NCBI GenBank assembly: GCA_024642205.1
Contig: JAHEBQ010000005.1
Span: 905-64,904 of the forward strand
Length of the DNA stretch: 64,000 nucleotides
Direction of reading: 5' to 3'
From: Planctomycetaceae bacterium
GTDB taxonomy: Bacteria; Planctomycetota; Planctomycetia; Pirellulales; Pirellulaceae
Part shown: in pieces, positions 33,145-49,976 of the stretch
How the letters are laid out: each line of letters opens with the position of its first letter
How positions within the stretch are numbered: the stretch's first letter is position 1
Program-made: the position numbers and the translations under genes
Notes under the pieces: model-generated
Told to the model about the DNA's origin: nothing
Database searches by the model: none
What the model saw: only the letters and a program-made list of their open reading frames with translations

Positions 33145-33263
33145 AATCTCGCTTCCCGACCTTGATGCAGAAGTGGCACCCGGTTGGGCCTATTATGGCT
33201 CGCGGGCACGAATCGCCAATTCAGACATATCCGAAGAGAATTTGAGATTAAGAAAGTAGATCA

Positions 33264-33515
33264 ATGGCCCACAAAAAGGGACAAGGCTCCAGTCGCAACG
33301 GTCGTGATTCCAACGCCCAGCGTCGCGGTGTAAAGAAATTTGGCGGAGAACGTGTGATCGCTGGCAACATTCTGGTTCGTCAGGTTGGCAATAAGTGGCA
33401 TCCAGGGAAAGGTGTTGGCCAAGGAAAAGACTACACGCTGTTTGCATTGATCGATGGAAACATCATGTTCGACCGCAAAGGCCGACGAATCAACGTCGTT
33501 GCGGAAAACAACTAG
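33264..33515 (+). CDS. rpmA: Large ribosomal subunit protein bL27
   Basis: Ribosomal protein of 83 aa close to the peptidyl transferase centre. The sequence begins [20 protein letters not shown] and contains [19 protein letters not shown] and [20 protein letters not shown], all standard for bL27. There is no N-terminal extension of the kind cleaved in Firmicutes. In most bacteria rplU (bL21) precedes rpmA; here an exported protein gene lies upstream, so the rplU-rpmA pair is broken. A clear terminator follows at 33617-33647, before obg. Confidence 0.97.
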
Positions 33516-33616
33516 TGCCTCTTCCGAATGGTCCTGGAATCCATTGGTTTCCAGAGCTGCGAGGCGCTCAAGGAATTTCCGTTCGTTGACATCTCGGTGC
33601 GATTCGAAACAATACC

Positions 33617-33647
33617 AAGGATGCCAGATCTGGCATCCTTTTTTTTT
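33617..33647 (+). terminator. Intrinsic terminator between rpmA and obg
   Basis: A perfect stem AAGGATGCCA / TGGCATCCTT with loop GATC (33617-33640), followed by seven more T residues to 33647. It lies about 100 bp after the rpmA stop and is the clearest terminator in the window. It should separate rpmA from obg, which would then need its own promoter in the remaining 68 bp, or rely on read-through. Confidence 0.88.
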
Positions 33648-33715
33648 CCGATTACGGTTCATCAATCAATACTTGACTTCCAGGCCCGCCTGGTGCCTCC
33701 AACCATTGGATTTCC

Positions 33716-45046: not shown

Positions 45047-46552
45047 TCAGCTCGAGGATTTCTTCTTTGACCAGTCTCTCCGCTGTCGCGAACTTGGTAT
45101 CGAGAGTTTCTCACGATACTTGGAAACGGTACGTCGGGCGACGACAAAGCCCTGGTTCTTCAACAACTGCATGATCTCTTCGTCGCTGTAGGGCTTGGAC
45201 TTGTCTTCGCCATCGATCAGTTTCTGCAGTTCAATTCGGACCTTGTTCCAGGCCACATCCTCCCCGTCGTCGGTCGTCGTACCGCCCATGAAGAACATTC
45301 TTAACGGCAAAATCCCGCGATTGGTCTCAATCCATTTCTGATCGACCGCGCGGCTGACCGTCGTCACGGCAACACCAACCTTTTCAGCGATCTGATCCAT
45401 TTTCAATGGTTTGAGAAACTCTGGCCCATCGTCAAAGAACTCCTTTTGATGGTTGACGATTTCCTGCGCGACACGCGTCAACGTACTGCGACGCTGTTCG
45501 ATGGACTCGATCAGCCACTGGGCAGCGGTAACCTTCCGCTTGATAAACTCCTTTTCTTCTGCCGTGGCCTGTCCGTTTGCCAGTCGTTGACGGTAGTACT
45601 TGCTGATGTACAGATTGCGCGTCGGGCCTTCTTCCATTCTGACGATGTAGTTTCCTTGATCGTCCTGTTCCAGCCACATGTCAGGGGTGACCGTCGGAAC
45701 AAAGTCGTCGGCGAACCGACTTGCCGGCCGCGGGTCAAGTTTTCGAAGTTCGTCCCAGGCTTCGTTGATTTCATCAATCGTGAGCCCCGTCGACTTTTCG
45801 ATCTGTGGCATTCGATTGTGCTGCAAATCTTCGAGATGATGAAGTATCAGCGTACGAACATTTTTCAAGTGGACAATATCCGATGACAGTTGAAGCAACA
45901 GACATTCACACAGGTCGCGGGCACCCACGCCTGGCGGGTCAAGTTGCTGAATGTGAGCCAGTGCTTCCTCGGCCAACTCCAGATCTTCCGGCCCTGCATC
46001 CGATGGCAATAAATCGTTGAGGGCGACTTTCAGGTAACCACCGTCTTTTGCTGACAACGACGAAACAATCCGCTCGCACATCCGGAGCAGTTTGGGATTC
46101 AAATCCATTTCGTGAAGCTGAGACGTCAGATGGCTCTGCAACGTCTCGCCGCGGTCGACGATATTGGCGATTAAATCGTGTTGGCGATCCCCGCTTTCCT
46201 GAATCCGGTTGGACGACGGCCGCGTGCTTTCGTCAAAATAATCGGGGATGTCCTTGTCCAGATTTAGCAGCCGTTCAAAGTCATCCTCGCCACCCTGGTC
46301 TTCGTCGACGACAAGCTCTTTTTCTTCGACGTCTTTTGATTCCTTTACAGGATCAAGCGTGTTTTCTGGCTGATCTTCCGGAAACGAGGTTTCATCCGCC
46401 CGCTCCAGGGCCGGATTCTCAATCAGTTCCTGCTCGATTTTTTCATCCAGCGCAGCCTGGGCCATCTGCAATATCTCCATCGACTGGATCATGCGCGGAG
46501 CCAGTTTCTGGGTTTGCTTTTGGGACAGGTGTTGGCCGAACGATATTTTCAT
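45047..46552 (-). CDS. rpoN: RNA polymerase sigma-54 factor RpoN
   Basis: A full-length 501-aa sigma-54. The activator-interacting region I is MKISFGQHLSQKQTQKLAPR with MIQSMEILQMAQAALDEKIE, followed by an acidic region II (about residues 50-120). The core-binding region has DLCECLLLQL and LDPRPASRFADDFV. The DNA-binding end has VGVAVTTVSRAVDQKWIETN (helix-turn-helix, -12 recognition) and the RpoN box ARRTVSKYREKL near residue 480 (-24 recognition). It lies apart from the dnaX operon. Its presence means that -24/-12 promoters should exist in this genome. Confidence 0.96.
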   Translation of the reverse strand: MKISFGQHLSQKQTQKLAPRMIQSMEILQMAQAALDEKIEQELIENPALERADETSFPEDQPENTLDPVKESKDVEEKELVVDEDQGGEDDFERLLNLDKDIPDYFDESTRPSSNRIQESGDRQHDLIANIVDRGETLQSHLTSQLHEMDLNPKLLRMCERIVSSLSAKDGGYLKVALNDLLPSDAGPEDLELAEEALAHIQQLDPPGVGARDLCECLLLQLSSDIVHLKNVRTLILHHLEDLQHNRMPQIEKSTGLTIDEINEAWDELRKLDPRPASRFADDFVPTVTPDMWLEQDDQGNYIVRMEEGPTRNLYISKYYRQRLANGQATAEEKEFIKRKVTAAQWLIESIEQRRSTLTRVAQEIVNHQKEFFDDGPEFLKPLKMDQIAEKVGVAVTTVSRAVDQKWIETNRGILPLRMFFMGGTTTDDGEDVAWNKVRIELQKLIDGEDKSKPYSDEEIMQLLKNQGFVVARRTVSKYREKLSIPSSRQRRDWSKKKSSS

Positions 46553-46876
46553 CTACATCTTTCAGGTAATGAATCGAATGAATGTGAGTAGCATCTCAGC
46601 TCACTTTTATCGGATCAAACGTATCGCCGTAAGGCGAACTCCCGCATTTTCCATTTTAACGTTCAAATCCGCGGCAAACGCTCATTGCTGAAAGAATTTA
46701 CGTTTTGAACGCCGTTTGTGGTGCTCAATTCCGGCGCTTTTTACGCAAACACCAGACAGTTAACCAGTGTTCTGCTCAATGTTGTTAAATCTGGTAACAC
46801 CAATCCCCGGGATTCGTCGCTGGTTCCTGTAATCCAACCCCATACCGGTCGCCTGAATCAGACGTCTGTCCAACAA
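46553..46876. other. Intergenic region between rpoN and recR
   Basis: About 324 bp, on the minus strand between the end of recR and the start of rpoN. It should contain the rpoN promoter and the end of the dnaX-ybaB-recR transcript. No stem with a T-run and no convincing -35/-10 pair was found. Confidence 0.35.
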
Positions 46877-47476
46877 TCACAGCGGCTGCCGCCCGGCGAG
46901 TGCGTCTGCCAATATTTCCTTGTTGGTGTATTCAAGTACACTCCCAGTCGTGATGCCTCTCGCCAACCTCGATAGTCTTACGTCATCATCGGCCAACAGG
47001 TTCGAAATATGCAAAGCAGTGCCATCGCCTTCAACCGTCGGATTGGTCGCCATTATGACTTCCGCAAATGTTCCTTCGGCAATCCGTCCAACGAGCCGAT
47101 CGATCGTCAACTGGTCTGGACCAATATTTTCTAGTGGTGCGATCCGACCCAGCAAAACATGATACAGCCCTTTGTAGGTCCCAGACTGCTCCAATGCCAT
47201 CAAATCTCGTGGCTGTTCAACCACACAAATCAAAGTCTGGTCCCGCGCCGGGTCACGACAAATGTTGCACATCTCGCTCTCGGCAAGGTTGAAACAGATG
47301 TCGCAATACCGGACGTTTTCACGCACCGATCGAATCGAATCCGAAAGCGCAAACGCCTCGGATTCAGGGACCCGCAAGAGGTGATACGCCAATCGCTCAG
47401 CTGACTTTCGACCGATACCCGGCAATCGCGAAAGCTGATCGATCATATGCGATACTGAATCGGAAAGTTCTGCCAT
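46877..47476 (-). CDS. recR: Recombination mediator protein RecR
   Basis: Acts with RecO (and RecF) to load RecA on gapped DNA. The 199-aa protein has the helix-hairpin-helix LSRLPGIGRKSAERLAYHLL near the N-terminus, a four-cysteine zinc finger (CDIC ... CNIC near residues 57-71), the Toprim start LICVVEQPRDLMALE, and the C-terminal GDGTALHISNLL and LARGITTGSVLEYTN. Length and order are standard. It is the third gene of dnaX-ybaB-recR, 62 bp after ybaB. Confidence 0.97.
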   Translation of the reverse strand: MAELSDSVSHMIDQLSRLPGIGRKSAERLAYHLLRVPESEAFALSDSIRSVRENVRYCDICFNLAESEMCNICRDPARDQTLICVVEQPRDLMALEQSGTYKGLYHVLLGRIAPLENIGPDQLTIDRLVGRIAEGTFAEVIMATNPTVEGDGTALHISNLLADDDVRLSRLARGITTGSVLEYTNKEILADALAGRQPL

Positions 47477-47538
47477 TCGACCGTTACATTCTCCCTGTCA
47501 ATTTGACCTCGTCGCTCGCCGCCCGTCGAACTCAATGA

Positions 47539-47910
47539 TCAACCGATTTCCTCGTCTGCCTCTCCCATCAACTGCTTGAGCATGTCTTGCATGTTACCGG
47601 GTATCGGGAGATCTTCGGTGACCGCCTGCATCGCCTCCATCCGCAACTGTTGCTGTTTTTCCAATGCATCGTTGATCGCCGCAGGCAGCAAATCCCGGAT
47701 CATCTCGAGATCCTTTTTTTCTTCGAGGACGGGATCAATTTCGATCCTCAGGATTTGACCTCCCCCGTCGGCATGGACCTTCACCATTCCACCCCCGGAA
47801 ACGCCACAAACCTGGATCGTCTTTAACTGTTCCATCTGCTCTTGCATCCTGGGCCCCATGGTTCTGGCCTGCTTCATCAGCGATGCAATATTTCCGATTC
47901 CCTTAAACAT
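47539..47910 (-). CDS. YbaB/EbfC family nucleoid-associated protein
   Basis: A 123-aa dimeric DNA-binding protein. MFKGIGNIASLMKQARTMGP begins the long helix, followed by VSGGGMVKVHADGGGQILRI (the strand region) and DLEMIRDLLPAAINDALEK. This matches YbaB in length and pattern. It sits between dnaX and recR, as in most bacteria. The N-terminal helix and the Met/Gln-rich sequence (RMQEQMEQLKTIQV) are normal. Confidence 0.94.
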   Translation of the reverse strand: MFKGIGNIASLMKQARTMGPRMQEQMEQLKTIQVCGVSGGGMVKVHADGGGQILRIEIDPVLEEKKDLEMIRDLLPAAINDALEKQQQLRMEAMQAVTEDLPIPGNMQDMLKQLMGEADEEIG

Positions 47911-47972
47911 CTGATTCTCCAGAGAAGTGATGGCATTGACGTTGCGAAGACAATTGAACGCGTTCGACCGAG

Positions 47973-49976
47973 TCAGATTTTATCCCGTCGACCATTTTTT
48001 GTCCGCGCCGGTTCCTGGTACCCCGTAATTTCGGCATCAAAAAGTGAAATCGTCTGTTTGATCAGCGAGACATCCTGCAGTTTCCGGATTTGTTGTGCTC
48101 GTGATAACTTGGGGACCGGTGTGTGTTCCTGTCTGGCTCGCGCGGAAGCCATGAAATCCACCCGGATTTTCGACCCGGTAATCCGCTCCAATGCCATCTC
48201 GAATTTCTGCTTTCGCTCAGGTTTCGAACAGAGTTCCTTACTGGCCGAATCGGGCAGCGTGACGACCAGTTGATCGGGCAGCGTCAATTCAACCGCTTCA
48301 TAGTCCGAGGCCATGTCGGCAGTCATATCACCCATGTCTTCGAGCATCCGTTTCCAAAACAATTCGATATTGCCAGTGGTCACAGCGTCCAGTTGGGAAG
48401 CTCCAGTTTCAACCGTCGTGGGCGCCGTTTCGACAGCCGTTGGTTCGATCGCGGCCGGTTGCACCAAACCATCATCTTCGTTGCCGAGATTTGGCAGTTT
48501 CGTTTCCGGCGAGGGAGGCCGAAGCTCAACTGCGATTGATTCTGGTGCCCTTCCTGGGGTGACTTCAACGGCACCGGGAACCCTCTCAATCGCAGTTTCC
48601 ATCGTTGCGTTGTTAACATTCAATTCGACAGATTCCACCTTCAAAAAACCGCTAGCTAATTCGTTTTTTTTTGATGGCGGTTCGGGCTCCGGTTTCTTGT
48701 ATTCGACTTGTTGAAACTGCACACGCGGTCGGGCTCGCGCTGCCGATCGATCCGCGGATGGTTTTGATTCTCCCGCTTTGGACAGACTCTTGACCAAATC
48801 CGAGATTGAATCCAGTTTTTCCAGATTGCAAATGCGGACCGCTGCAGACTCCAACAGCGTGCGTGAATGCAAACTCGACTGCATCCTGACGATCGACGCA
48901 TCGAGCAACTGGACAACCGACAGGATCGTTTCCAGACCAATGGCATCGGCCAATCGCGTGAGGTGCTCCATGTCCGACGAAGTGCAGTTGAGCATCGTGT
49001 CTTCGCCGCAACCGACTCGAACGGCCATCATGTCGCGAAAGTAGCCCAGCAGCTGTTCCGCCATTTGCCCGGCATCCACACCATCAGCCATACCTCGATG
49101 AATCAAGTTTAGCGTCTCGGTTGGATCGGCGTTTGTCATCGCGGTCGCAATCGCGGCAATCCGGCTCATGTCTGCCGTTCCCAGCAATTGATGGACTTCG
49201 TCGACCGAGATTTCCATTCCACAAAACGAAAACAACTGCTCAAGAAGCGACTGGCTGTCTCGCATCGAACCGTTTGCGCGCCTGGCAAGCAGTGCCAGCG
49301 CCGAATCGTCTGCGACAACACCCTCGTTCTCAGCAATCTCTCTCAACCGGTTGGCGATCTCCACGGTTTGAACCGGAGAAAAATCGAATCGCTGGCAGCG
49401 CGACAAAACTGTGATTGGAATTTTCTGTGGATCGGTTGTGCAGAAGATAAACTTCACGTGCGACGGCGGCTCCTCCAAAGTCTTGAGCAATGCGTTGAAA
49501 GCCTGCATGGTCAACATGTGAACTTCGTCGATGATGTAGATCTTGTATTTGGACCGACTGGGTCTGACCGCCGCGTTGGATCTTAACTGGCGAATCTCAT
49601 CGATTCCGCGATTACTCGCGCCATCGATTTCAAGCACATCGACGTCCTCCCCCGCGGAAACTGCCTCGCAGACATCACACTGATTGCACGGCGTCATGGT
49701 GGGGCCTTTTTCGCAGTTCAGACACTTGGCGAAAATTCGCGCCGACGATGTCTTCCCGACTCCCCGTGCCCCGGTAAACAAATACGCATGGCCGACCCGG
49801 TTCTTTTCAATCGCGTTGGATAGCGCCGTCGCGATATGAGCTTGACCGACCAGGTCACCAAACGACTGAGGCCGGTACTTGAGCGCAACAACTTTGTATT
49901 GACCGTCTTCAGCTGGCTGTTTTGCGTTCATCAGGGAATCTGGGGCTACGACAATTGTTCGGGCGTTGGGAATCAT
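47973..49976 (-). CDS. dnaX: DNA polymerase III tau/gamma subunit DnaX
   Basis: Clamp-loader ATPase of the replisome. From ATG 49976 the protein has 667 aa. The N-terminal ATPase has LVGQAHIATALSNAIEKN, Walker A GARGVGKTSSARIFAK, a zinc module with C-x8-C-x2-C-x2-C (CLNCEKGPTMTPCNQCDVC), Walker B IIDEVHML, and the SRC motif VLSRCQRFDF. The linker is Pro/Glu-rich, and the C-terminal domain (from about 545) would bind polymerase and helicase. A run of nine A residues on the coding strand (48672-48664) encodes part of SKKN at residues 435-438; the +1 and -1 frames both stop within a few codons. The open frame starts at TTG 49997, but ATG 49976 seems likelier. A weak TAGAAT sequence (49998-50003) could be a -10 box. 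Confidence 0.96.
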   Translation of the reverse strand: MIPNARTIVVAPDSLMNAKQPAEDGQYKVVALKYRPQSFGDLVGQAHIATALSNAIEKNRVGHAYLFTGARGVGKTSSARIFAKCLNCEKGPTMTPCNQCDVCEAVSAGEDVDVLEIDGASNRGIDEIRQLRSNAAVRPSRSKYKIYIIDEVHMLTMQAFNALLKTLEEPPSHVKFIFCTTDPQKIPITVLSRCQRFDFSPVQTVEIANRLREIAENEGVVADDSALALLARRANGSMRDSQSLLEQLFSFCGMEISVDEVHQLLGTADMSRIAAIATAMTNADPTETLNLIHRGMADGVDAGQMAEQLLGYFRDMMAVRVGCGEDTMLNCTSSDMEHLTRLADAIGLETILSVVQLLDASIVRMQSSLHSRTLLESAAVRICNLEKLDSISDLVKSLSKAGESKPSADRSAARARPRVQFQQVEYKKPEPEPPSKKNELASGFLKVESVELNVNNATMETAIERVPGAVEVTPGRAPESIAVELRPPSPETKLPNLGNEDDGLVQPAAIEPTAVETAPTTVETGASQLDAVTTGNIELFWKRMLEDMGDMTADMASDYEAVELTLPDQLVVTLPDSASKELCSKPERKQKFEMALERITGSKIRVDFMASARARQEHTPVPKLSRAQQIRKLQDVSLIKQTISLFDAEITGYQEPARTKNGRRDKI
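48664..48672 (-). promoter_or_regulatory. Slippery A9 tract in dnaX, candidate site for gamma-subunit production
   Basis: Nine A residues on the coding strand within TCA-AAA-AAA-AAC. One inserted base reads S-K-K-K-R-I-S then TAG; one lost base reads S-K-K-T-N then TAG. Either slip would give a protein of about 440 residues with the intact ATPase part, close to E. coli gamma. Thermus dnaX uses an A9 run for transcriptional slippage. Confidence 0.55.

Follow-up and report, generated by a model that had tools for sequence, protein, structure and literature searches.

The dnaX gene of the window, the whole 64,000-nucleotide stretch of DNA analysed here, contains a run of nine A residues that we judge, with a probability of roughly 0.78, to be a programmed transcriptional slippage site. 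Across much of the window's class, the run is conserved in the same place and in company with nearby stop codons in the two alternative reading frames. We propose that slippage of RNA polymerase on these A's would leave part of the dnaX mRNA with A's added or lost. On mRNAs shifted by a number of bases that is not a multiple of three, the ribosome would stop within a few codons and release a gamma-like DnaX of about 424–441 residues comprising only the ATPase, lid, and domain III; unshifted mRNA would give full-length tau, including the C-terminal region. A single gene could in this way supply two clamp-loader subunits in a ratio determined by the run. The pattern appears to fit such polymerase slippage, with a gamma-like DnaX made beside tau, better than ribosomal frameshifting of the E. 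coli type.

The A9 run and alternative-frame stops in dnaX

The dnaX gene occupies positions 47973–49976 on the minus strand, and translation of its open reading frame from the ATG at 49976 gives a full-length, tau-like protein of 667 residues. Its identity as DnaX (DNA polymerase III gamma/tau) is secure. The NCBIfam dnaX_nterm model scored 445 bits over residues 27–383, compared to a cut-off of 250, and the AAA+, lid, and domain III models also exceeded their cut-offs, with Pfam matches to PF13177 (residues 45–202), PF22608 (206–252), and PF12169 (257–397). The clamp-loader ATPase, lid, and domain III together span residues 45–397 (positions 48786–49844, minus strand). Because domain III ends at residue 397, a product of 439–441 residues would still contain the entire clamp-loader part and lack the C-terminal region. 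This tau-only region (residues 506–660, positions 47997–48461, minus strand) is conserved, with a mean pairwise identity of 0.42 and 3% gaps among 25 same-genus proteins; for the linker just before it, these values were 0.19 and 38%. A methionine occurs at the position of Met16 in five same-genus relatives (L004, L005, L007, L008, and L010), and conservation upstream of Met16 is poor; thus, the natural start may be the ATG at 49931, which would give a full-length protein of 652 residues and short forms of 426 and 424. The genome assembly that includes the window comprises 6.8 Mb in 158 contigs and is 92% complete. Among 80 dnaX loci with titled records, the closest DnaX was that of Aporhodopirellula aestuarii (61%; family Pirellulaceae, class Planctomycetia). 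The window probably comes from this family or from close to it.

The run lies at positions 48664–48672 on the minus strand and extends from the third base of codon 435 to codon 438 of 667, where the coding strand reads CCA TCA AAA AAA AAC GAA TTA GCT AGC. Gain of one A, or a −1 ribosomal shift, leads through S435-KKK-R-I-S to a TAG at 48654–48652 (minus strand) and a 441-residue product, and deletion of a single A, or insertion of two, leads through S435-KK-T-N to a TAG at 48658–48656 (minus strand) and a 439-residue product, with the stops 4 and 2 codons beyond the run, respectively. The run position and both product sizes given in the preliminary description of this DNA are therefore exact.

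Within the window alone, the evidence that the run and its stops exceed chance is modest. Two A9 runs were observed in the 64 kb compared to 2.64 expected by chance. Only 1 of 400 synonymous redraws of the window dnaX had stops in both frames as near as those observed, and 3.25% of the redraws closed both frames within 7 codons. The case beyond chance rests on relatives rather than on the window, as nine or more consecutive A's occur a short way past the ATPase part in 118 of the 148 dnaX loci examined from this class.

Conservation of the run in relatives

We extracted dnaX loci from related genomes at each rank from genus to phylum. Genomes without a usable locus were G002 and G058, which gave weak, paralogue-like matches, G134, with no match at the cut-off, and G141, with a partial one. 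Within the genus, 26 of 27 loci had at least nine A's in a row, and the exception is truncated at a contig end. The corresponding counts were 17 of 21 for the rest of the family, 19 of 26 for the rest of the order, and 56 of 74 for the rest of the class, and such runs occurred in 23 of the 26 families of the class. Among the 148 class loci, L025, which lies at a contig end, was counted as lacking the run, and L025 and L172 were excluded from the redraw tests. At the level of genera, 69 of 84 carried such a run, compared to 7.7 expected when codons were redrawn synonymously with the amino acids kept and 0.64 expected when codon order was shuffled. With one locus taken per genus, the run lay 5–61 residues past the aligned N-terminal part, which itself ends approximately where domain III does, and runs of 9 or 10 occurred in all three phases.

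The longest run, again scored in one locus per genus, was 9 in 43 genera, 10 in 26, and at most 7 in 15, with none at 8 and none above 10, whereas the null expectation was 7.7 genera at 8 and 5.7 at 7. This distribution behaves like a threshold. All 117 measured class loci with a run had lengths of 9 or 10 only; L136, which falls outside the one-per-genus set, is the one class locus with A8 as its longest run. Mean pairwise identity among the 25 same-genus proteins was 0.77 in domains I–III and 0.71 in the run codons, compared to 0.28 and 0.19 in the linker segments that precede and follow it, respectively. Thus, the run is a conserved feature within an otherwise drifting linker.

In other classes of the phylum, 14 of 58 loci had a run of at least nine A's, a figure that is only indicative because the sample is uneven: the 58 loci came from 187 genomes searched, and included 18 best matches and a next 20 of which many were picked for short frames. 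Counted by record title, the run was present in 10 of 14 Planctomycetota and 5 of 66 others among the 80 titled loci, which overlap partly with the lineage sample (e.g. L219 and L051, and L231 and L134, each look like one genome). The titled Planctomycetota with the run include Aporhodopirellula aestuarii, Gemmata sp. IIL30, and an uncultured Schlesneria. Five loci with titles of Ignavibacteria, Verrucomicrobia, Phycisphaerae, and Bacteroidetes (L240, L244, L258, L273, and L292) have A9 or A10 in dnaX and both frames closed within 11 codons; it is possible that they represent further lineages with the signal.

Conservation of the stops

Both alternative frames stopped within 7 codons of the run in 48 of the 69 run-bearing genera, compared to 5.4 expected from the redraws, in which the highest value of 400 simulations was 13. 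Taken singly, the +1 frame was closed within this distance in 56 genera (18.3 expected) and the −1 frame in 59 (24.4 expected), and the median distance to the stop was 3 codons after gain of an A and 4 codons after loss of an A, compared to 14 and 24, respectively, under the redraw. Both-frame closure at the run (69.6%) was also far more frequent than at 1035 positions located 15–59 codons downstream in the same genes, 5.3% of which closed both frames as fast (these control positions overlap one another within a gene), or at 255 positions in linkers without a run, for which the value was 0.8%. The stops go together with the run. Rapid closure of both frames, which the preliminary description took as a sign of selection, was found in most genera with the run, but in the remaining 21 of 69 one or both frames stay open beyond 7 codons. 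Its reading had also been exposed to refutation by homologues with interrupted runs or open alternative frames, and it survived this comparison of dnaX genes.

The run and stop statistics bear on three further explanations. Chance could have combined a lysine-rich linker, an A-rich stretch, and coincidental stops, and an A9 run is unsurprising in the window taken alone. Against this, genera with the run exceed the number expected for the same amino acids about as 69 to 7.7, the stops exceed both sets of controls, and the run occurs even where the G+C content of the locus reaches 72% (L122 and L155), which leaves chance with a negligible share of the probability. Alternatively, the lysine peptide itself might be selected, for example for DNA binding, with the short protein irrelevant, as the run encodes two or three lysines in same-genus loci. 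Outside the run, however, lysine codons were more commonly AAG than AAA (703 vs 507), so that selection for lysine alone would not maintain pure A, and it would also leave the closure of both alternative frames unexplained; we regard this explanation as very improbable. The run could also serve to switch dnaX at the DNA level by slipped-strand phase variation, since homopolymers of such length mutate readily and the zero frame is broken at the run in L023, a locus of the same genus. This break is confined to L023 among the 118 run-bearing class loci (L172 is truncated at a contig end) and may be a one-base assembly error, run length is restricted to 9 or 10 in the measured loci, and tau is expected to be essential, all of which make phase variation a still fainter prospect than peptide selection. 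We set aside chance, lysine-peptide selection, and DNA-level phase variation on the basis of the run and stop statistics, codon usage, and intact zero frames.

Polymerase slippage compared to ribosomal frameshifting

E. coli-type frameshifting in dnaX uses an A_AAA_AAG heptamer, an SD-like element, and a stem-loop. Programmed −1 frameshifting by ribosomes on the A-run could yield the short product in this style with no slipping by the polymerase. The −1 frame does close fast in most genera, A_AAA_AAA is contained within the run in 69 of 69 genera and A_AAA_AAG in 13 of 69, and tRNA-Lys(UUU) was the sole lysine tRNA found among those read in the window genome (see below). Because any run of at least nine A's contains A_AAA_AAA, ribosomal slipping could occur alone or in addition. 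However, an E. coli-type shift needs closure of the −1 frame only, and the rapid closure of the +1 frame, which is useless for a −1 shift, is unexplained by it. Moreover, seven A's would be enough for the ribosome, yet with one locus per genus no longest run was 8, and A_AAA_AAG was missing in 56 of 69 genera. SD-like elements and downstream structure were no commoner than at control places: an SD-like motif preceded the run in 3 of 69 genera compared to 29 of 414 control places, and the 55 bases downstream of the run folded with a z of −0.26 compared to −0.27 for the control (69 genera). In the window, the run contains the heptamers A_AAA_AAA and A_AAA_AAC and lacks A_AAA_AAG, an upstream SD-like element and a downstream stem-loop are absent, and the downstream stretch gave a fold z of +1.0, worse than its own shuffles. 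Closure of the +1 frame, the absence of SD or fold enrichment, the use of all phases, and the near-absence of A8 together point to RNA polymerase, and ribosomal frameshifting in place of polymerase slippage seems unlikely, although it merits more weight than the explanations set aside above.

Runs of nine A or T are efficient sites of RNA polymerase slippage according to excerpts of PMC5009743, in which the presence of two lysine tRNAs is also suggested to favour polymerase slippage in Thermus. Among the 36 loci of the window genome read with ARAGORN, we found tRNA-Lys(UUU) and no tRNA-Lys(CUU). This set of lysine tRNAs among those read, as in E. coli, counts against Thermus-like slippage. The 36 loci were drawn from 46 tRNA places detected with RF00005, for which 150 of 293 candidates were scored; of the places without an anticodon, L330 was unclear and one in L329 was uncalled, and the eight places left unread, at 82–89 bases, match leucine, serine, or tyrosine tRNAs in size. 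A lysine tRNA pattern search gave no match.

Absence, doubling, and possible reversal of the run

No run of at least nine A's was present in 30 of the 148 class loci, 29 of which have readable linkers. The run was absent from all four loci of genus g34, which belongs to the same family as the window (L064–L067), 3 of 3 loci of family f17 (L056, L078, and L081), 3 of 3 loci of family f26 (L119, L137, and L170), and 5 of 6 loci of genus g51. A search of the 29 readable run-less linkers for X_XXY_YYZ heptamers and homopolymers gave no clear substitute signal. The heptamers found were GGGAAAG in the four g34 loci, AAAAAAT in L074, AAAAAAA in L118, TTTAAAC in L119, and AAAAAAC in L136, and among these loci only L118 (A7) and L136 (A8) reach a −1 stop within 5 codons. 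The short product would thus be dispensable in such loci or made otherwise there.

On a FastTree tree of 205 DnaX N-terminal parts, run presence changed 26 times, compared to a mean of 61 for shuffled presence, and the starred branches force 16 changes. Within the class, 17 changes were counted on a FastTree tree of the class rows and a few outgroup rows; both counts are of changes in either direction. Six loci of genus g48 (L094, L096, L097, L132, L139, and L143) have two neighbouring runs, arranged as A9-TTG-A9 or A9-TTG-A10, with stops right behind. In three loci, L023 (genome G009, same genus), L180 (G155), and L183 (G257), dnaX is reversed: the zero frame stops just past an A10, and one extra A opens a long frame. 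A similar reversed arrangement was present in L277, an Opitutaceae record. These four loci could reflect one-base assembly errors or miscalled run lengths. A broader reading, which we hold tentatively and at somewhat less than even odds, is that the gamma:tau ratio in Planctomycetia is set by polymerase slippage on a tuned A9 or A10, with repeated losses or gains of this trait, a doubling in a single genus, and, in some lineages, a reversal by one A that makes gamma the default and tau the slipped product.

In four other loci, L177, L178, and L184 of family f35 and L179 of family f75, the dnaX frame ends 9–16 codons past the N-terminal part with no A-run of 7 or more at its end. In each, a second frame that overlaps the first (−1 in f35, +1 in L179) continues for 467–626 bases past the stop and has, by eye, a tau-like C-terminus.

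Relation to known dnaX systems

Transcriptional slippage in dnaX of Thermus thermophilus was reportedly described by Larsen et al. in 2000. In the excerpts of PMC5009743 and PMC1088944, the sense strand of Thermus dnaX has a run of nine A's, tau is read in one frame, the other two frames close nearby, and a short gamma is made; the gene is a leading cellular example of slippage that makes two working proteins. As far as those excerpts describe the Thermus gene, the window dnaX resembles it in carrying nine sense-strand A's in the linker, an unshifted tau, close stops in both other frames, and a predicted short gamma-like product. The two cases differ in that slippage was measured in Thermus, whereas the planctomycete evidence comes from sequence, and in that the planctomycete signal extends over most of a class, in which the runs are 9 or 10 long and occupy three phases. 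The preliminary description had put forward slippage of the Thermus kind, with a defined short product under selection, and the conservation of the run and stops in relatives argues for this proposal.

E. coli gamma, at 431 residues, is similar in length to the predicted short product. The E. coli gene uses programmed −1 ribosomal frameshifting according to excerpts of PMC5009743. It differs from the window dnaX, which lacks the combination of A_AAA_AAG, SD-like element, and stem-loop, and from the relatives, in which these elements are unenriched and the +1 frame is closed too. Two-frame dnaX genes identified by GeneTack contain A-runs of 7–10 for which slippage was proposed, and reversed arrangements in which tau needs a shift are reported in other bacteria (excerpts of PMC3711429). 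As described there, these genes share a poly-A run with the window dnaX but require a shift to make tau, whereas tau is unshifted in the window, where dnaX is a single open frame of 667 residues and the tau C-terminus does not lie in a shifted frame; L023, L180, L183, and L277 resemble the GeneTack type.

The single mention of a planctomycete in the excerpts of PMC3711429 is a table row. Among the matches listed in a literature search, which covered mostly sources other than subscription journals, there was no report of dnaX slippage in Planctomycetia. The slippage mechanism in Thermus and poly-A dnaX genes elsewhere are thus already known, and what appears to be new is conservation across most of Planctomycetia. 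If our reading is correct, slippage in dnaX would extend to a second lineage, comprising most of a class and far from Thermus, and would be a solution that recurs and has been retained for a long time. Because some relatives have the run and others do not (none of the four loci of genus g34 in the window's family carries it), gamma's role could be tested by comparison, and the named carriers Gemmata sp. IIL30 and Aporhodopirellula aestuarii make the trait accessible in culture.

Two further features of the window were observed. The sole other A9 run, at 33639–33647 on the minus strand, lies inside a putative, mechanically called ORF of 134 residues (33261–33665). The minus-strand segment at 45047–49976 contains dnaX followed by three further genes, which we take to be, in order, YbaB/EbfC-like, RecR-like, and RpoN-like.
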